From: Ancylomarina subtilis
GTDB taxonomy: Bacteria; Bacteroidota; Bacteroidia; Bacteroidales; Marinifilaceae
Length of the DNA stretch: 64,000 bases
NCBI RefSeq assembly: GCF_004217115.1
Contig: NZ_SHKN01000001.1
Coordinates: 2,545,781 to 2,609,780 of the forward strand
Reading direction: 5' to 3'
Part shown: positions 1 to 8,764 of the stretch, one piece after another
Layout: every line of letters starts with the position of its first letter
Numbering within the stretch: the stretch's first letter is position 1
The notes under the pieces: model-generated
Databases searched by the model: none
What the model saw: the letters and a program-made list of their open reading frames with translations, nothing else
What the model was told of the DNA's origin: nothing
Program-made: the position numbers and the translations under genes

Positions 1-115
1 TCTCAATTTCTAAATAGGATCGATAGAAATGGTAAACTCACAATTTCAAAACCGATCTCAATTTGGTATTACAAGCAAGTCCATTACTTTTGAGGGATTC
101 AAACAATTATATTTT

Positions 116-727
116 ATGCGATTTGTTGGCGTACCACAATTTTTAAAAAGACTTTTCTCCCGTCTCATTTGGGACTACAATACAGGAGAGAAAATTGTTT
201 ACATCACCTTTGATGATGGGCCTATTCCAGAGTCCACACCCTGGACCCTAAAGCTTCTTAGCGATAAGAATGTAAAAGCGACTTTCTTTTGCGTAGGCGA
301 TAATGTGAGAAAATATCCGGAAATTTATCAGCAGATTTTGAAGGAGGGTCATGCCGTTGGTAATCACACCCACAATCACTTAAGAGGTTTTACAAATCAA
401 ACGCAAAGCTATGTCAATAATGTAAGACTGGCGAGTCAATATATCAATTCCGAACTCTTTCGCCCTCCTTATGGCATGATTAAACGCTCCCAAGCCAAAC
501 AACTTTTAAAGAATTATAAAATCGTCATGTGGGATGTTCTGAGTCAGGATTATCGACAAGATATCAGCCCTGAGTCATGCTACAAAGCGGTATTAAAAAA
601 CATCAAGCCTGGTTCCATTATTCTTTTCCACAACCATGTGAAATCTGAGAAAAATATGCGTTATGCCTTGCCTCGCTTGATTGATGAACTAAGAAACAGA
701 GGCTTTGAATTTGGGGTTTGTAAATAA
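116..727 (+). CDS. polysaccharide deacetylase family protein (NodB fold)
   Basis: Carbohydrate esterase 4 / NodB-type deacetylase, a metal-dependent enzyme that removes acetyl groups from N-acetylated sugars, probably in the envelope. Numbered from the upstream ATG at 29, the NodB motifs are TFDDGP (60-65, metal and catalytic Asp62/Asp63), H-x3-H (His113 and His117 in HTHNH) and RPPYG (145-149), followed by the C-terminal LFHNH motif. The frame is open from ATG 29, but family members usually begin a few residues before the FLKRLF-like segment, so ATG 116 (203 aa) is preferred; ATG 29 (232 aa) remains possible. No signal peptide is obvious. A hairpin terminator follows directly. The natural substrate cannot be told from sequence. 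Confidence 0.85.
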   Translation: MRFVGVPQFLKRLFSRLIWDYNTGEKIVYITFDDGPIPESTPWTLKLLSDKNVKATFFCVGDNVRKYPEIYQQILKEGHAVGNHTHNHLRGFTNQTQSYVNNVRLASQYINSELFRPPYGMIKRSQAKQLLKNYKIVMWDVLSQDYRQDISPESCYKAVLKNIKPGSIILFHNHVKSEKNMRYALPRLIDELRNRGFEFGVCK

Positions 728-731
728 AAAA

Positions 732-762
732 AAGAGCAGAACCCAATTAAGATTCTGCTCTT
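732..762. terminator. intrinsic terminator after the deacetylase gene
   Basis: Perfect 10-bp stem, AAGAGCAGAA (732-741) with TTCTGCTCTT (753-762), starting 5 bases after the stop codon. The plus side ends in a T-rich stretch and the minus side in a run of U (A-tract 724-733), so it could work in both directions. Confidence 0.8.
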
Positions 763-784
763 CTTATATTTATCTCAACGAGAT

Positions 785-914
785 CTAATTCTCTGTCGTC
801 TCTCCTCCAAATTCCATCAAGTAAGCTTTGATAGAAGCATCCAAATCGCCATCTAAAACAGCCTGTACATTTGAGGTTTCGTGGCCTGTACGCACATCTT
901 TTAGCTTTTGTAAG
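785..914 (-). pseudogene. displaced 3'-end fragment of prfB (release factor 2)
   Basis: Read on the minus strand, 785-901 encodes 38 residues ([13 protein letters not shown]... to [10 protein letters not shown], then TAG) that match the C terminus of the intact prfB product, which ends [10 protein letters not shown]. Thirty-three of 38 residues are identical and many DNA differences fall at third codon positions, so this tail diverged while it was still part of a working gene. Nucleotide similarity continues to about 914, where a small deletion breaks the frame, and then stops at the palindromic repeats. There is no start codon or upstream domain. It has the same orientation as prfB and lies about 1.06 kb beyond the intact stop codon, with the RayT unit between them. 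Confidence 0.85.
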
Positions 915-916
915 TT

Positions 917-1084
917 TTTATCTGATGATTAAATAGGCGTAAAGAATATTCATCAGATAATTTATCTCAACAGTAAATCAATTTATCTGATGATTTTCAG
1001 GATGTAGACTATTCTTTGGATAAAATTAATGTCTCCCAAAGCTGCAGTTCAGATTTATCTGATTCATGAATGTTCATCAGATAA
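917..1084. repeat. array of TTATCTGATG palindromic repeats left of rayT
   Basis: The unit TTATCTGATG occurs at 918-927 and 983-992 and as its inverse CATCAGATAA at 951-960 and 1075-1084; a shortened TTATCTGA lies at 1055-1062. The units pair as hairpins (918-927 with 951-960; 1055-1062 with 1075-1084). Irregular spacing and inverted orientation fit REP/BIME-like sequences, not CRISPR. The same element recurs to the right of rayT. Confidence 0.75.
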
Positions 1085-1104
1085 TTTACATCGACCGTAA
1101 ACGA

Positions 1105-1171
1105 ATTTATCCGATAAATTTTCATCTTCTAAACGATTTATCGGATAAATAGACTCGGTTAATCCTTCTTA
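1105..1171. repeat. left composite direct repeat (paired hairpins plus prfB-tail sequence)
   Basis: ATTTATCCGATAAAT (1105-1119) and its exact inverse ATTTATCGGATAAAT (1136-1150) form a 15-bp stem with a 16-base loop. TCGGTTAATCCTTCTT follows, which on the minus strand reads as a KKD-stop tail resembling the end of prfB. Confidence 0.75.
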
Positions 1172-1243
1172 ATTTTTCAAATCATAATCTTTTCTTAAGT
1201 CAAGAATTAAACTTATCTTCCTGTTAAACTTAAACATTAAGAT

Positions 1244-1831
1244 ATGGATTTTGAAAGTGGACATATCTATCATATCCTCAACCAAGGAAATAACAGAAGG
1301 AAAATTTTCTTTAAAAGAGATAACTACCTCTATTTTATTAAGAAAATAAGAACACACATTCTCCCATATGCAGATATTATTGCATGGTGTTTAATGCCTA
1401 ACCATTTTCATTTAATGGTGCACGTCAATAACACAGAGATTACTGTTAATCCCAACACTGGAAATGAAAAATTAAGAAGTATCAACAGCTCTATAGCCAT
1501 AATGCTTCATTCATATACAAGAGCTATTAATAAAGTTGAAAATACATCCGGTTCTCTTTTTAGAGCAAGAACAAAAGCTTATTGTTTGGATAAAATTGAA
1601 TCTGCAGATCACGTCTGGTATTCTGATAATGGTATAAGCATGATAAATACAGATCACTCGACAAGATATCATCTGCAAACCTGCTTTAATTATATTCACA
1701 ATAATCCAAGTGCAGCGAAATTGGTAGAGTGTAATACCGATTGGGAGTTTTCTTCTGCAATTGACTATGCCGACAGACGAAATGGTAATCTGGTGAATAA
1801 AGACATTGCTATAAAGCTAGGGCTAATATAA
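1244..1831 (+). CDS. REP-associated tyrosine transposase (RayT, Y1 family)
   Basis: A 195-aa protein of the Y1_Tnp / TnpA-REP group, single-strand DNA transposases of the HUH class. Visible motifs are the metal-binding H-x-H (His54 and His56 in MPNHFHLMVHV) and the catalytic tyrosine Tyr150 in the family signature FNYIHNNP. The C-terminal EFSSAIDY resembles the usual RayT ending. The length is normal and there is no frameshift, so it may be active. It stands alone between palindromic repeats, as RayT genes do, and is transcribed opposite to prfB. The start ATG at 1244 directly precedes the conserved N-terminal HIYHILNQGNNR segment. No accessory or cargo gene is present. Confidence 0.88.
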   Translation: MDFESGHIYHILNQGNNRRKIFFKRDNYLYFIKKIRTHILPYADIIAWCLMPNHFHLMVHVNNTEITVNPNTGNEKLRSINSSIAIMLHSYTRAINKVENTSGSLFRARTKAYCLDKIESADHVWYSDNGISMINTDHSTRYHLQTCFNYIHNNPSAAKLVECNTDWEFSSAIDYADRRNGNLVNKDIAIKLGLI

Positions 1832-1837
1832 TTGAGA

Positions 1838-1883
1838 GTTATCTGATGAATTGTTTTTTAAGTCTATTAATTCATCTGATAAC
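1838..1883. repeat. TTATCTGATG palindrome right of rayT
   Basis: GTTATCTGATGAATT (1838-1852) pairs with AATTCATCTGATAAC (1869-1883) with one mismatch. It begins 7 bases after the rayT stop codon and matches the units at 917-1084. It could also end rayT transcription. Confidence 0.7.
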
Positions 1884-1917
1884 TTTTATTTCTCAATATC
1901 AATATACTCTAATCTAG

Positions 1918-1984
1918 ATTTATCCGATAAATTCTCATATTGTAAAAAATTTATCAGATAAATGAATTCGGTTAATCCTCCTTG
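1918..1984. repeat. right composite direct repeat overlapping the prfB stop
   Basis: ATTTATCCGATAAAT (1918-1932) and ATTTATCAGATAAAT (1949-1963) form an imperfect hairpin, followed by TCGGTTAATCCTCCTT, whose last 13 bases are the final prfB codons. It is the direct repeat of 1105-1171. Confidence 0.75.
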
Positions 1985-3073
1985 TTCTCGCCTCCAAATT
2001 CCATTAAATAGGCTTTAATAAAACCATCCAGATCGCCATCTAATACGGCTTGTACATTTGAGGTTTCGTGACCTGTTCGAACATCTTTCACCATTTTGTA
2101 AGGCTGCATCACATAGGAACGGATTTGAGATCCCCACTCTATTTTTTTCTTAGTGCCTTCAATCTTATCTAGCTCTTCCTGACGCTTACGCAATTCCAGC
2201 TCGTAAAGCTGCGATTTAAGCAAGCGTAAAGCGTTCTCACGGTTACCAAGTTGCGAACGGGTTTCGGTGTTCTCTATGATGATGCCAGTGGGTGCATGCC
2301 GCAAGCGAACGCCCGTCTCCACCTTATTCACATTCTGACCTCCTGCTCCCCCCGATCGGAATGTATCCCAGGTGATATCAGCAGGGTTGATTTGAATATC
2401 AATCGTATCATCAATAGCGGGATAAACATAGACCGAAGCAAAGGTTGTCATTCGCTTATTGGCCGCATTAAAGGGCGATAAACGCACCAAACGATGCACG
2501 CCTGTCTCCGATTTTAAGAATCCGTATGCAAAATCACCTTCAAATTCGAGAGTTGCTGATTTAATTCCAGCCTCATCGCCTTCCTGATATTCCAATTGTC
2601 GAACCTTGTAACCATTAGCTTCACCATAGCGCAAGTACATGCGATAAAGCATGCCTGCCCAATCTAAACTCTCGGTTCCTCCAGCCCCGGAATTGATCTT
2701 TAGGATGGCTCCCATCTGATCTTCTTCCTTGCGAAGCATATTCTTCAACTCCAACTCTTCGAGCAATTTCTTTGTTAAAGCATATTGCGCATCAACTTCT
2801 TCCGGAGAGGCTTCCCCCTCTTTTGCAAATTCGTAAAGCACCTGTAAATCATCTTCTGAAGCTTTCACCTCATCATAGGATTCAACCCAGGATTTCAAAC
2901 TTCTAACCTTCTTCATTTGCACCTCAGCCTCCTTAGGATTGTCCCAAAAACCGGGTGCCTGTGTGCGCAAGTCTTCTTCTTGTATCTGGATTAATTTGGC
3001 ATCAATGTCAAAGATACCTCCTCAGCGCTATCGTGCGCTCCGCTAAATCTTTTAGCTGGTCATTTGTTATCAT
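1972..3073 (-). CDS. prfB: peptide chain release factor 2 with programmed +1 frameshift
   Basis: RF2 recognises UAA and UGA stop codons and releases the finished peptide on the ribosome. The full 366-aa protein comes from two frames: 21 codons from ATG 3073 to an in-frame TGA at 3010-3008, then a +1 shift into the frame that ends at 1972. Family motifs are the SPF tripeptide (in [11 protein letters not shown]), which reads the stop codon, and GGQ (in [12 protein letters not shown]), the hydrolysis motif. The length matches the family. A conventional search would report only the part from TTG 2970. The C-terminal tail abuts RayT repeats, and a diverged copy of it lies at 785-914, so the present tail may have been exchanged. 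An exact TAACTTTG promoter box lies at 3107-3100. Confidence 0.95.
3007..3022 (-). promoter_or_regulatory. RF2 programmed +1 frameshift site
   Basis: On the minus strand AGGAGG (3022-3017) is followed by TAT, CTT, TGA and C. This is the classic RF2 autoregulation site: an internal Shine-Dalgarno sequence a few bases before a slippery CTT and a poor TGA-C stop. When RF2 is scarce, the ribosome slips +1 and makes full-length RF2 (established mechanism). Confidence 0.95.
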
Positions 3074-3099
3074 ATGTATGTGATTTTATAATCGAGAAT

Positions 3100-3107
3100 C
3101 AAAGTTA
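3100..3107 (-). promoter_or_regulatory. prfB promoter -7 box TAACTTTG
   Basis: Exact match to the Bacteroidota -7 consensus TAnnTTTG, giving a predicted leader of about 22 bases before ATG 3073. No clear -33 element was identified. Confidence 0.55.
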
Positions 3108-3199
3108 ACAAAATTCATTTGTTATACCCCACAAGACGCGATTCATCCTCACTCTTTAAAAGTGAAGCGATGCAAAATTTAATCTTAAGAACTATGATT

Positions 3200-3442
3200 T
3201 TAAGGTACTGGATCGTGCCCGTGTCCGCCCCAGGGATTACAGGACAAAATGCGTTTTATAGCCAGGTAGCTCCCCTTAAATGGGCCGTGAGCCTTTAGGG
3301 CTTGAATAGCGTATGTAGAACAAGTCGGTGTGTATCGGCATGCCGAAGGAGTCATGGGGGAAATAAACATCTGATAAAACCTAATCGGCAGTATCATGAC
3401 GAAAAGTATCGCCTTCTTCAATTTGCTTAACAAACTTGTCAT
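3200..3442 (-). CDS. yidD: membrane protein insertion efficiency factor YidD
   Basis: An 80-aa YidD protein with an N-terminal hydrophobic/amphipathic segment (about 9-30) and the family core [18 protein letters not shown] (three Cys), then [12 protein letters not shown]. YidD associates with the inner membrane and helps YidC-dependent insertion. The gene overlaps the 3' end of rnpA by 62 bases, the common rnpA-yidD coupling, and is probably co-translated with it. The length is normal. Confidence 0.93.
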
Positions 3443-3827
3443 ATTCAGGTCCTATACGCCGAAGAGCTTTTACGAGTTTCGTATCCATCTCGGCTGATTT
3501 CAGAATTGTTTTAGGCAAATATACAATCATAAACGATATTTGTGCCTCTCTGTCATTCAAATCCTTATAAAGCAGGTGTTTATTCAAACGGTAAATTTCA
3601 CGAATTCTTCGTTTCAATAAATTACGTTTAACCGCCTGCTTAAAACTCCTTTTAGTGACTGTAATAGCAACCTGAGCTGGAAAGTCAACATCAAGTGGTG
3701 TACTTTTCCACACGATACGGAAAGGATAACACGTAAAGCCTCTGCCTTCAGCAAACAAGCTCGAAATGCGCTTTTTGTGACAAAGGCGTTCCTCTTTTGT
3801 AAAACGATAGCGTACAGAATCGGTCAT
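3381..3827 (-). CDS. rnpA: ribonuclease P protein component
   Basis: The protein subunit of RNase P, which helps the catalytic RNA bind pre-tRNA and remove the 5' leader. The 148-aa product carries the RNR signature [22 protein letters not shown] and the N-terminal F-x-K-x-R-type start of the family. It is somewhat longer than the usual 110-130 aa; the extra C-terminal residues lie in the overlap with yidD. rpmH, often upstream in other phyla, is not here; hemD is upstream instead, separated by a terminator. Confidence 0.93.
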
Positions 3828-3901
3828 GTATAATGGATAAAAGGAGCTTGAAGCTTAAATTTACTAAAAAAGTATCTATATCAGAAAGATGCCTTGGGGA
3901 T

Positions 3902-3929
3902 AATAAAAAAGGGGAAAGCAACTTTCCCC
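3902..3929 (-). terminator. intrinsic terminator downstream of hemD
   Basis: GGGGAAAG (3911-3918) pairs with CTTTCCCC (3922-3929). On the minus strand the stem is followed by a U-rich run (A-tract 3902-3910). It lies about 50 bases after the hemD stop codon and separates hemD from rnpA. Confidence 0.8.
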
Positions 3930-3979
3930 AATTCAGTTTGAAGAGATCTTCTACAATAGAAAAATCATCTTTCAATATT

Positions 3980-4738
3980 TTATTTGTCCTTGTTCTCTTT
4001 GTTGTATGCCTTAATAAATTGATCCAAAGCCATGGTCATTGATGGTGCCTGTGGCATTGGAGCTTGAATATCAAGACGAAGGTTTGCGTCTTTTACAGCT
4101 TTTGATGTTGCTGGACCAAAGGCTGCTATTACTGTCCCATTCTGTTCAAAATCAGGGAAGTTTTGTAATAGAGATTTAATTCCAGATGGGCTATAAAAAG
4201 CAAGAATATCGTAATTTACATCAGCCAAATCTGACAAATCACTACTGACTGTCTTATAAAGAATAGCTTTGGTGTATTTTATCTTATTTTTATTCAATAA
4301 AGCTGGAATAGATTGCTTATGAATATCTGAAAGAGGCAATAAGAATTTTTCTTTTTTGTGCTTTACGATTGTGTCAATCAGATCTTCAAAAACTCTTACT
4401 CCAAAGAAAATTTTTCTTTTACGATACACGATATATTTCTGAAGATAAAAAGCCGTTGATTCCGAAATACAGAAATATTTCATATCATCTGGAATCGTAA
4501 CGCGCATTTCTTCAGCAATTCTAAAGAAATGATCAATCGCCGTTCTACTAGTAAAAATTACCGCAGTATGGTCTAGAATATTGATTCTCTCTTGTCTGAA
4601 TTCTTTGGCACTTATACCTTCAACTTGAATGAAAGGGCGAAAATCAATTTTTAAGTTGTACTTTTCTGCCAGATCGAAATAAGGCGATTTTTCCGTTTGG
4701 GGCTTCGGTTGCGAAACTAATATTGTTTTGATTTTCAA
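3980..4738 (-). CDS. hemD: uroporphyrinogen-III synthase
   Basis: A 252-aa protein of the HemD family, which closes and inverts ring D of hydroxymethylbilane in haem and corrinoid synthesis. The sequence has the two-lobe HemD pattern: an N-terminal ILVSQPKPQ segment, TAVIFTSRTAIDHFF (about 58-72), and in the second half ILAFYSPSGIKSLLQNFP and GTVIAAFGPATSKAVKDA, the typical conserved block. HemD proteins are poorly conserved; this identification rests on the T-S-R and FGPAT-type motifs and on length. It sits 44 bases downstream of the DUF4271 gene and is probably co-transcribed with it, a linkage known in Bacteroidota. Confidence 0.87.
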   Translation of the reverse strand: MKIKTILVSQPKPQTEKSPYFDLAEKYNLKIDFRPFIQVEGISAKEFRQERINILDHTAVIFTSRTAIDHFFRIAEEMRVTIPDDMKYFCISESTAFYLQKYIVYRKRKIFFGVRVFEDLIDTIVKHKKEKFLLPLSDIHKQSIPALLNKNKIKYTKAILYKTVSSDLSDLADVNYDILAFYSPSGIKSLLQNFPDFEQNGTVIAAFGPATSKAVKDANLRLDIQAPMPQAPSMTMALDQFIKAYNKENKDK

Positions 4739-4782
4739 GGCTATAATCTTTAATTAAAACATTATTTTCCACTCTTAGATTA

Positions 4783-5742
4783 CTATCCTACTAATAATTT
4801 GTAAATCATTAGCAAAGGGAGTATTTCCAGAGCGCAAAGATACAAAATCATATAAAATATAGAAACATGTTTACGCAATAATATTTTTAAGCCCCTTGCA
4901 ATTCTTAATATAAAGAAGAAGAAAACCATGAAAAGACCTATGTTTACGAGCCATTCCATCGCTTGAGGCCGCACAAAAGGCAGTGCAATAATCACCGGAA
5001 AGAGGAATAATCCAAGGTTCTTATTGTATAAAAACACCGTAAATAGGTATTCTTTACACTCATTTTTCCCCTTAAACACATAACCTAAACTCCTTATTAC
5101 AATACTTTTCCCAACATATAAAAGAAGAATAGCAAGAAAAATTAAAGCGAATTCTTTAAACCCATTATCCAAACCCGAACTTAGGGAAACGTAGTTGAGA
5201 ATGTTGACAGCAAACAATGAAATATTAACAACAAATAAAAGGTTAACGATCATTGACCCCTTCACCATATTGATATTCTTTTCCAGAAAAAGATTATTCG
5301 CTGTGTGGGAGTTAAAAATAGATTCAACAAGTTTCGACAAATATTTCCCAAACAAAAATTTAGCTGAAGCGAGTAAAAACAAAGAAAACAGAATAATCCC
5401 TACGAGCCAGTCATTTCCAAATCCAATATTCTGAAAGCGTGCAATTTCCTTACCCCCATACTTAGGCGCATGCTGAATAAATGCCTGCCTTGTACTATCA
5501 GCAAGAGCTAGAGAGTCCTTCACTAACAAACTTGAATCGTTTATAATTGAATCCGACTCATACAAAGCCGATTCTGCTGATAAGGAATCTTTAAGCATCA
5601 AGGTCCCTTGAGCCAGAGTATCACTATTGACAGATTTCTTTTGCGAGTTCCCAACCGTTGCAGTTGTATCAACACGTTCAGCATGTTTTTGAATAAAATC
5701 AGGGGAACAATTGGTCTTCATAGTTAATAAAAAATCTTTCAA
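4783..5742 (-). CDS. DUF4271 domain membrane protein
   Basis: A 319-aa integral membrane protein. The first 110 residues are polar and Ser/Asp-rich and probably not membrane-embedded; about six hydrophobic segments follow, near 112-131, 164-184, 198-217, 243-258, 264-284 and 294-317. The pattern and the position beside hemD fit the Bacteroidota DUF4271 family, whose function is unknown. The start at 5742 would give a leader of about 8 bases from the promoter box at 5762-5755; ATG 5721 (residue 8) is a reasonable alternative. Confidence 0.75.
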   Translation of the reverse strand: MKDFLLTMKTNCSPDFIQKHAERVDTTATVGNSQKKSVNSDTLAQGTLMLKDSLSAESALYESDSIINDSSLLVKDSLALADSTRQAFIQHAPKYGGKEIARFQNIGFGNDWLVGIILFSLFLLASAKFLFGKYLSKLVESIFNSHTANNLFLEKNINMVKGSMIVNLLFVVNISLFAVNILNYVSLSSGLDNGFKEFALIFLAILLLYVGKSIVIRSLGYVFKGKNECKEYLFTVFLYNKNLGLFLFPVIIALPFVRPQAMEWLVNIGLFMVFFFFILRIARGLKILLRKHVSIFYMILYLCALEILPLLMIYKLLVG

Positions 5743-5754
5743 AATTTGTTTTCA

Positions 5755-5762
5755 CAAATATA
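5755..5762 (-). promoter_or_regulatory. DUF4271/hemD promoter -7 box TATATTTG
   Basis: Exact TAnnTTTG match directly upstream of the DUF4271 start. It would drive a DUF4271-hemD transcript that ends at the terminator at 3902-3929. Confidence 0.5.
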
Positions 5763-5929
5763 CGGGAATAAAAGAAATCTAAACTGGGAAATAACCCTTG
5801 AAATAACATTTCTTTGCTCAGTGCCCTATACATATTAAAAACACAACGAAACATCAGGTGAATGGATTAGCAAATCCTAATAAAATAAAAAGCATTTGGG
5901 TCCACCGATGCTCAAAATCCCTAACAATT

Positions 5930-6781
5930 TTAAAACAAGCTTTTCAGTTTGAAACTTTCTTTGGGTTTAATACCTCGGGCTGTTTTCTCCAATGAACAGC
6001 ATTCGTTCTGAATATCGTGCTGAAAAAAGAGCGTGTAATTTTTCTCTACGGCTTCCTTCAAAAAGTCTTCTTTTTCCTTAAGAACAACAGTCGGAAAGAG
6101 ATCGTAAGCTGCTATCCATTTCAAATTCACATTAGCCAAAGTCGGAATAAAGTCCGCAGTAAAAGCAATGGTTTTATCTGTATCATGAACAAGAACTGCC
6201 ATCAAACCCTTTGTATGTCCATTAAACTGTCTAACTTCCACATTAGGAAAAAGTTCTCCATCCTTCTCAACCAGATTTAACTTACCCGCTTCGAATATTG
6301 GCATCATGTTTTCAGGGAAATAACTGTCACCTTCGCGAACATTAGGGTTTAGGTAATTCTCCCACTGTGCTTTGCTCACCCAATGTGTCGCATTCGGAAA
6401 TACCAACTCCAATTCTTTTGTTCCCGCCTTATAACGAGTCGCACCACCACAATGATCAAAATGAAGATGTGTAAAAATCACATCTGTAATATCCTCAAAG
6501 TCACAACCCAATTTACTAAGTGACGATTGAAGCGTATCGTCTCCCCAAAGGTGATAATGGCTGGTGTAAGAGTCAGCCTGCTTGTCGCCTGTTCCATTAT
6601 CAATTAAGATGCGGCGATCACCATCAACAATAAGCATACTTCTCAGGGCGCAATCACAAAGATTATTTTCATCAGCAGGATATTTTTTATTCCACATGAA
6701 CTTAGGAACAACACCAAACATTGCACCACCATCGCATTTAAAATTCCCGGTTTCTATTGAATAGATTTGCATTTTCTTCAT
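5930..6781 (-). CDS. MBL-fold (metallo-beta-lactamase superfamily) hydrolase
   Basis: A 283-aa cytoplasmic hydrolase with all metal ligands of the fold: HLHFDH (105-110), His189 (in FNGHTKG), Asp210 (in AFTADFIP) and His255 (in FFQHD). The N-terminal DNGTGDK precedes the first ligand motif, as in lactonase and glyoxalase-like members. The superfamily is too broad to assign a substrate; lactone or thioester hydrolysis is only a possibility. ATG at residue 4 could be the true start. It is an isolated gene with no clear operon partner. Confidence 0.85.
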   Translation of the reverse strand: MKKMQIYSIETGNFKCDGGAMFGVVPKFMWNKKYPADENNLCDCALRSMLIVDGDRRILIDNGTGDKQADSYTSHYHLWGDDTLQSSLSKLGCDFEDITDVIFTHLHFDHCGGATRYKAGTKELELVFPNATHWVSKAQWENYLNPNVREGDSYFPENMMPIFEAGKLNLVEKDGELFPNVEVRQFNGHTKGLMAVLVHDTDKTIAFTADFIPTLANVNLKWIAAYDLFPTVVLKEKEDFLKEAVEKNYTLFFQHDIQNECCSLEKTARGIKPKESFKLKSLF

Positions 6782-7104: not shown

Positions 7105-8469
7105 ATGCGAGTACATTTTATTGCCATTGGCGGAGCTGCTATGCACAATCTGGCGCTTGCCCTACACAAAAAAGGATTTAAGGTTTCAGGATCAGATGAT
7201 GAAATATTTGACCCTTCGAAAAGTCGATTGGAAAAATACGGTTTGCTCCCTGAAGAATGGGGCTGGTTTCCAAACAAAATTACATCAGATATTGACGCCA
7301 TCATTTTAGGCATGCATGCCAGAATTGATAACCCCGAACTACTAAAAGCAAAAGAACTGGGGCTAAAAATCTACTCATACCCGGAATACATCTACGAACA
7401 AACCAAGGACAAAACCCGCGTTGTGATTGGCGGATCACATGGCAAAACGACCACCACATCGATGATTATGCATGTTTTAAAGTGCAATCAGATCGACTTT
7501 GATTATATGGTTGGAGCGCAAATAGAAGGCTTTGACACCATGGTAAAACTCAGTGAAGATGCAAAGATCGCTGTTTTCGAAGGAGACGAATACCTCGCCT
7601 CGCCTATCGATCCTCGTCCGAAATTCCATCTCTATCACCCGCATATTGCTCTGTTGACTGGTATTGCATGGGATCATATCAATGTCTTTCCTACCTTCGA
7701 AAACTACTTAAGTCAATTCGAGACCTTCATCAACTTTATTAAACCTGGTGGTAGCCTCATCTATTTTGAAAACGATCAGCATATTGCTAAGATGGTTCAA
7801 AAGAAAAGAGATGACATCTCATACAGACCTTACAAGTCGCACCCCCACAAAGTGGATAATGGCATCAGTTCATTAATTACAAAAAATGGCGAGTTTGAAT
7901 TATCAATCTTTGGCGAACACAATCTCCAAAACCTACAAGGGGCCTACCTAATCTGCAAGGAATTAGGTCTAAGTGACGAGCAATTTTATTCCTCGATAAA
8001 AAGTTTTGGAGGAGCAGCCAAACGTTTACAAAAATTAGCCCAAAACAAACAGACCATCGTTTATCAGGATTTTGCCCACTCGCCTTCTAAACTTGAAGCC
8101 ACGACCCAAGCTGTGAAAAATCAGTTTCCTGACAGAAAGCTTATTGCCTGTATGGAACTTCACACATTCAGTAGTTTGAAAGAAGAGTTTCTGCCTGAAT
8201 ACAATGGCAGCATGTCATTTGCAGATGTTGCCATGGTATATTTCAACCCCAAAACAGTTGAACACAAAAAATTGACACCCATCACCATTCAACAGGTTCA
8301 AGAAGCATTTGGCGGCGATAACTTGAAAGTTTATACGGACTCTCAAGTTTTATTAACAGATTTAATGCAATTAAACTTCGAAAAAACGAATCTCCTTCTA
8401 ATGAGCTCTGGCAACTTTTCCGGTTTAAACCTAAAAGAAGTCGCTGATAAAATTATCATGAAGGCATAA
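7105..8469 (+). CDS. mpl: Mur ligase family protein, probably UDP-MurNAc:murein-peptide ligase (Mpl-like)
   Basis: A 454-aa ATP-dependent ligase of the MurC/Mpl group. It has the N-terminal nucleotide-binding start MRVHFIAIGG, the P-loop GGSHGKTTTT (109-118), the EGDEYL motif that binds metal and phosphate, and the GIAWDHINVF segment before the C-terminal ligase domain. In Mpl, the recycled tripeptide L-Ala-D-Glu-meso-DAP is joined to UDP-MurNAc. The sequence looks closer to Mpl than to a second MurC, but I cannot exclude a MurC paralogue. The frame is open from 7069, but the family begins at MRVHF, so ATG 7105 is chosen. A terminator follows. Confidence 0.77.
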   Translation: MRVHFIAIGGAAMHNLALALHKKGFKVSGSDDEIFDPSKSRLEKYGLLPEEWGWFPNKITSDIDAIILGMHARIDNPELLKAKELGLKIYSYPEYIYEQTKDKTRVVIGGSHGKTTTTSMIMHVLKCNQIDFDYMVGAQIEGFDTMVKLSEDAKIAVFEGDEYLASPIDPRPKFHLYHPHIALLTGIAWDHINVFPTFENYLSQFETFINFIKPGGSLIYFENDQHIAKMVQKKRDDISYRPYKSHPHKVDNGISSLITKNGEFELSIFGEHNLQNLQGAYLICKELGLSDEQFYSSIKSFGGAAKRLQKLAQNKQTIVYQDFAHSPSKLEATTQAVKNQFPDRKLIACMELHTFSSLKEEFLPEYNGSMSFADVAMVYFNPKTVEHKKLTPITIQQVQEAFGGDNLKVYTDSQVLLTDLMQLNFEKTNLLLMSSGNFSGLNLKEVADKIIMKA

Positions 8470-8499
8470 ACGACTCAGTCTTGATACGAATAATAGTGG

Positions 8500-8530
8500 G
8501 AGGTGCTAAAAACGGCACCTCTTATTTTTA
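8500..8530 (+). terminator. intrinsic terminator after the Mur ligase gene
   Basis: GAGGTGC (8500-8506) pairs with GCACCTC (8515-8521) and is followed by TTATTTTTA. Confidence 0.8.
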
Positions 8531-8764
8531 TCCTGCTTTTATGATTGATCTAAATTCTTCAAACATTGATGGTCCTACCACAAACAAAGGTCTTCTTACT
8601 TAATCTCTAAAAGTATTCCAACATCTCTTATGTCAGAATTAAGTACAACTGATAGTGATAACAGCACTCTGTACTCAATTTATAAAAAATCAAAAAGGAC
8701 GCTAAATACCAGACTGTTAGAAAAAACAGTTAAAAAACATAGAGAATATTTCTCTAGATATACT

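Follow-up and report, generated by a model that had tools for sequence, protein, structure and literature searches.

How does an essential housekeeping gene come to possess two 3' ends, one in use and one decaying beyond a transposase gene? The question is raised by prfB, the gene for RF2, in Ancylomarina subtilis. We analyzed the locus within a window of 64,000 nt, the whole stretch under study (contig NZ_SHKN01000001.1, positions 2,545,781 to 2,609,780 of the forward strand), and all positions below are those of the window unless another locus is named. The comparison set comprised five genomes of the genus, designated G000 (the window's genome) to G004. A first-pass annotation had proposed that a new tail was joined to prfB and the old one displaced, and had named two possible agents, either a REP-associated tyrosine transposase (RAYT) lying between the two tails or a larger element that has since decayed.

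Gene order at the prfB locus

The prfB gene occupies 1972-3073 on the minus strand, with Pfam PCRF and RF-1 matches on 1972-2970. Its leader region, as read in translation, holds an in-frame TGA at 3008-3010, which we take to be an RF2-type programmed frameshift of the kind known from other RF2 genes. The working stop, at 1972, is followed in order by a REP hairpin, a second hairpin, the RAYT gene on the opposite strand, and further REP hairpins. Beyond the REPs lie a decayed prfB end (914-785 in prfB orientation), the conserved prfB terminator, which adjoins it and consists of a strong hairpin with a T run (725-765, minus strand; DNA fold z -5.5 on 725-784), and a convergent polysaccharide deacetylase-family gene (29-727, plus strand). 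All four congeners likewise have the latter downstream of prfB, at differing distances. No match to window positions 1-3100 was found among plasmid records, and no Rfam family matched positions 1-6000.

The decayed end (785-914, minus strand) was recognized as a direct repeat, by tblastn, and by comparison with the congeners. Positions 786-909 pair with 1973-2096 as an ungapped direct repeat of 124 nt at 82% identity, and in tblastn the tail, stop included, aligns across 40 columns at 85% (E = 2.7e-16); the diverged prfB tail reported earlier on the far side of the RAYT is therefore real. It starts at approximately prfB nt 870 (about codon 290), terminates in TAG, and has lost one base close to its start (CTTACAAAA-G vs CTTACAAAATGG, read by eye against the congeners).

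The RAYT (195 aa; 1244-1831, plus strand, opposite to prfB) features the motifs NHFH and YIHNNP, i.e., the HUH motif and the single catalytic tyrosine (YIH.NP) of the Y1 family, and its core residues are invariant in our alignment A1. Motifs of this form, NH[IFV]H and YIxNNP, are given for RAYT subclass 2.4 in a published table (PMC6006769). The protein scores 22 bits against Pfam Y1_Tnp (E = 2e-4; cut-off 23) and 47.2 bits against NCBIfam NF047646 (E = 2e-12), below a curated cut-off of 80 that is also missed by the RAYT of G003 (44.6) and by a second RAYT of G000 (52.4). The structurally characterized TnpArep (PDB 4er8) matches profile A1 with a whole-sequence E of 0.0011, and no single stretch of it passes. 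The second G000 RAYT, 47% identical to the first, is located at 7581-8204 of locus L041 (G000 C1, about 652600), where several direct repeats of ~150 nt on one side match one on the other side.

REPs, in this case AT-rich REP-like hairpins to which we assign no strand, flank the RAYT on both sides. REP A (1918-1963) is a paired-palindrome hairpin 8 nt past the prfB stop (DNA fold z -3.6 on 1917-1984; repeat D3) and is matched by covariance model R1. An inner hairpin (1833-1890; z -4.9) sits directly behind the RAYT stop, and a similar arrangement is seen in G003. Upstream of the RAYT is the REP B cluster (1062-1170), identified by repeat analysis and a model R1 match, and the outermost hairpin (918-960; z -4.3 on 915-965) has its foot 3 nt from the displaced tail. 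Positions 1105-1170 are 85% identical to 1918-1983. This 66-nt repeat takes in the last prfB codons and the stop (AAGGAGGATTAACCGA vs AAGAAGGATTAACCGA), and the matching flank differs in G003; a REP may have carried a few bases of the prfB end along when it was copied.

The resident prfB end in the congeners

In three of the four congeners (G001, G002, and G004), the prfB end is uninterrupted and carries no insert, and a terminator hairpin of the type AGAGCAGA...TCTGCTTTTTTT follows within about 30 nt of the stop. The hairpin of this type in G000 stands behind the displaced tail and not behind the working tail. Because the conserved terminator follows the displaced tail in G000 and the prfB stop in the three congeners, the displaced tail is, by position, the resident end. 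No RAYT was detected by tblastn in the stretches around the prfB terminator of these three genomes.

The remaining congener, G003, encodes a RAYT that is 87% identical in amino acids to that of G000 and lies, together with REPs, directly behind the prfB stop. Its prfB has a single tail by tblastn, and no terminator of this type was seen there on reading the sequence. In our searches, the next full-length match to the G000 RAYT after the G003 protein is at 59% identity, with short N-terminal fragments reaching 80%, and no donor nearer than 87% RAYT identity was found. Among the 97 RAYT-type loci of the first survey batch (see below), prfB occurs in the available flanks of only the G000 and G003 RAYTs (L037 and L090 are the same contig). 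For this shared position, common descent of the module is a better explanation than two insertions.

Within the genus, the stretch that separates prfB from the deacetylase gene is a variable spot, occupied by different sequence in G001, G002, and G003 and by almost none in G004. Beside the intact prfB-side RAYT of G003 there are also remnants of a second RAYT copy, recovered by tblastn as pieces of 23 and 26 aa (L037, prfB-oriented 3847-3995).

A proposed history of the locus

We propose, as a moderately probable history, that a linear fragment of the order prfB tail-REP-RAYT-REP from a G003-like donor recombined homologously within prfB and was joined illegitimately inside the resident tail. 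The ancestor of G000 would have had the order prfB-terminator-deacetylase, as in present-day G004. Linear DNA of a G003-like relative, comprising the prfB 3' part with its stop followed by REP, RAYT, and REP, would have entered the cell; one donor end would have paired with the resident prfB, with homologous exchange at about codon 281-284, and the other, at the foot of a REP hairpin, would have been attached near codon 290 of the resident gene, where it lacked real homology. As a result, prfB would be intact, ending in ~45 codons of donor origin and followed by the RAYT module, and the old tail and terminator would have moved about 1.1 kb away, the tail decaying in its new place. The foot of the outermost REP hairpin (918-960) is the putative illegitimate junction, and hairpins such as REPs may serve as DNA break points. 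The sequence across it reads REP foot, AAA, and then CTTAC of prfB.

Two such joins, which we regard as the simplest course of events, would amount to homology-facilitated illegitimate recombination. This is a described process (PMC3240628), and a further study proposes it for displaced T6SS effector genes and notes that it has been suggested for Rhs ends, too (PMC5361080). The likeness to the history proposed for our locus is one homologous and one non-homologous join with foreign DNA beside a gene; the G000 case differs in being reconstructed from a single natural locus, with the donor not in hand.

Origin of the working tail and direction of the event

Of 22 windows of 90 nt along prfB, 17 place G000 nearest to G002 (identity to G002 across all windows, 0.87-0.98), three to G001 or G004 (starts 675, 720, and 765), and the last two to G003 (0.91 and 0.94). 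The best breakpoint from G002 to G003, calculated on sites where these two differ, falls at CDS nt 843-852 (permutation p = 0.002, uncorrected). This border, at about 2119-2128, is the left limit of the putatively imported, G003-like working tail (1972-2125, minus strand). Past it, 9 of 12 sites match G003, with site 882 still G002-like, and two control comparisons gave p = 0.85 and p = 0.07 (uncorrected). Because prfB contains other breaks as well, near nt 651 towards G004 (p = 5e-5) and near nt 591 towards G001 (p = 0.03; both uncorrected), mosaicism at the tail is not special.

The synonymous distance (dS) from G000 to G003 is 1.17 for prfB codons 1-280 and 0.59 for the tail, and that to G002 is 0.40 and 1.06, respectively, the tail values resting on 39 codons only. 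None of the 254 overlapping 39-codon windows upstream reaches the tail's shift towards G003. In bootstraps of the 39 tail codons, pS ranges over 0.19-0.67 to G003 and 0.35-0.78 to G002, with the tail nearer G003 in 0.88 of resamples. These measures suggest that the prfB tail shifts in affinity from G002-like to G003-like. The difference is clearer for the RAYT, with pS to G003 of 0.31-0.51 vs 0.51-0.68 for prfB codons 1-280. Its dS to G003 (0.59) is lower than those of prfB, hemD, and the deacetylase gene and about equal to that of rnpA; since rnpA stands at 0.61, the RAYT value alone is no proof of transfer. The first-pass annotation had expected insert-free relatives to retain the displaced type of end and the tail now joined to prfB to be of foreign type. 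The former agrees with the uninterrupted, terminator-bearing ends of three congeners and the latter only modestly with the lean towards G003; in this part, its picture of a new tail joined to prfB and an old one displaced is supported.

The strongest rival to the import of a RAYT module is the mirror event, a failed eviction. The RAYT would be an old resident behind prfB, as in G003, the displaced tail would be foreign, and RAYT-free DNA of the order prfB tail-terminator-deacetylase would have recombined on the deacetylase side and been joined illegitimately at a REP, leaving the RAYT in place. We consider this unlikely, although several features would suit it. The displaced tail is closest to G001, at 104 of 117 nt, and shares 5 sites uniquely with G001, 2 with G004, and 0 with the sister G002, which is not ideal for a tail native to the G002 line. 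The deacetylase gene, too, is not G002-like at its prfB-proximal 3' end (0.77 vs 0.82-0.91 farther out), but extra sequence before this gene in G001 and G002 may explain the deviation. A mirror event would also leave the working tail as G002-like as the rest of prfB, contrary to the dS values above (with their wide error), and the RAYT would not be expected to lie nearer to G003 than prfB, hemD, and the deacetylase gene do, though in this it again resembles rnpA.

The distribution of REPs bears on the same choice, in that REPs of this type were not found elsewhere in G000 and none were found in G001 or G002; had the RAYT been resident for long, this would be surprising. Exact matches to the palindrome ATTTATCNGATAAAT number 4 in G000, every one at the prfB locus, 10 in G003 (4 at prfB and 6 away), none in G001 or G002, and 2 in G004, against 1 there for the backward control pattern. 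Paired-REP covariance model R1, which favors G003 (5 of its 7 source copies) and was applied to 150 candidates per genome, gives three rows in G000, again all at prfB, and 25 in G003, of which 4 are at prfB and 21 elsewhere at 19 places (two are opposite-strand readings). It gives none in G001 or G002 and three weak rows in G004, with scores like those of the weaker G003 rows. A DNA search with 1833-1984 returned five matches at prfB and five elsewhere in G003, and three at the locus in G000. Elsewhere in G000, cognate REPs were thus detected neither by exact pattern nor by model R1, and the DNA search added one weak match, at a place apparently shared with G002. A RAYT with REPs only around it fits a recent arrival, and Nunvar and colleagues have proposed that new REPs form near rayt after horizontal transfer (PMC2817692).

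Is the RAYT the agent?

The import of a RAYT module by recombination would leave the RAYT as passive cargo. As an active agent, it would have formed a single-stranded element with ends in the donor prfB tail and at the REP foot and pasted it at the same prfB position, a history that we regard as very improbable. Equally doubtful is the broader notion that it moved itself and a prfB tail into the same gene of another cell as a homing-like swap without an integrase. The prfB breakpoint (nt 843-852) nearly coincides with the point where the displaced tail starts (about nt 870), which would also suit such an insertion, as would an outer junction at a hairpin foot. IS200/IS605-type elements, however, are bounded by hairpins at both ends; here the outer end has one (z -4.3), and folding of the DNA at the border inside prfB gave none (z 0.5 and 1.4). 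A published assessment, moreover, holds it very unlikely that RAYTs transfer actively (PMC8049555).

A survey of RAYT-type loci for coding sequence repeated on both sides points in the same direction. It covered 126 loci in two batches, 97 (80 plus 17 further loci, some of them distant Y1 relatives) and 29. The first batch contained 71 loci flanked by 1 kb on either side and 25 with less, and L044 was not re-found; both flanks were present for 26 of 29 in the second. Altogether, 97 of the 126 had at least 1 kb on both sides, corresponding to 85 distinct places after merging the same DNA. A duplicated gene end was found at only one of these 85, the prfB locus of G000. The earlier suggestion that a RAYT can capture or swap a gene tail is therefore not supported, and the other 84 places did not supply the further bordered RAYT units that it anticipated.

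Several candidates from the survey were rejected as duplicated ends on inspection. The DNA at L155, L158, L159, L130, L121, L133, L136, L138, L153, and L075 shows mostly multi-copy arrays near the RAYT; L159 has instead a 164-nt inverted repeat, and at L130 the protein match is weak (21-25%) and paralogue-like, the DNA showing no more than short inverted repeats. L181, L191, L197, L201, and L202 contain many-copy repeats. L044 features a 301-nt direct repeat at 97% identity (5031-5331 and 8396-8696; G000 C1, about 1179031 and 1182396), but its two copies are placed between main ORFs, with a distant Y1-type transposase gene of G000 about 30 nt from one of them.

Tandem duplication of the prfB tail within the G000 line, with the RAYT inserted between the copies and one copy decaying, would explain two tails in the same orientation at a short distance. 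The working tail has 5 states among 117 sites that are private to G000, and none of the 5 occurs in the displaced tail, which for that reason is not a recent tandem copy; the two differ as much as tails of different species do. Tandem duplication would also require that a RAYT had inserted independently where G003 has its own. We hold this origin, which the first-pass annotation had named as one case that would overturn its reading, to be highly improbable.

Least probable of all is a decayed integrase element with the prfB 3' end as its attachment site: it would readily produce a restored and a displaced gene end, but the ORF list has nothing longer than 62 aa besides the RAYT between the tails, no integrase-type element was recognized on reading the G003 REP-RAYT array, and prfB ends uninterrupted in three congeners, so the larger lost element suggested previously finds no footing here. 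Ordinary recombination seems to explain the locus better than transposase action.

Relation to known systems

Islands that integrate by an integrase into gene 3' ends leave a restored gene and a displaced old end. The prfB locus of G000 resembles them in both features and differs in having no integrase. In the open-licence literature, we found no paper on prfB as a genomic island attB and none that joins REP-associated tyrosine transposases with illegitimate recombination. Related in form is the C-terminal displacement of Rhs and T6SS effectors, in which a new end is placed on a conserved 5' part and the old part lies downstream (PMC5361080). The G000 locus, in contrast, involves an essential housekeeping gene, an equivalent tail, and RAYT cargo, with no toxin or immunity gene. 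Relative to REPtrons and RAYT-REPIN systems (TnpAREP), the G000 RAYT shares the HUH and tyrosine motifs and REPs on both sides; it differs in that cognate REPs were not found elsewhere in the genome and that the module apparently came with the tail of a neighboring gene.

On one view, RAYTs occur as single copies that pass vertically, and recombination moves them passively at most (PMC8049555); other authors have inferred horizontal transfer from patchy or isolated occurrence (PMC6006769 and PMC3686654). A displaced gene end alone is no evidence of integrase or transposase activity, and the locus described here is explainable by known processes. It likely shows a RAYT module caught on arrival, its footprint left in an essential gene. 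With REPs only at the arrival site, it looks like passive RAYT arrival caught early, and the swapped and displaced tail of prfB would be the footprint that records the mode of RAYT entry.
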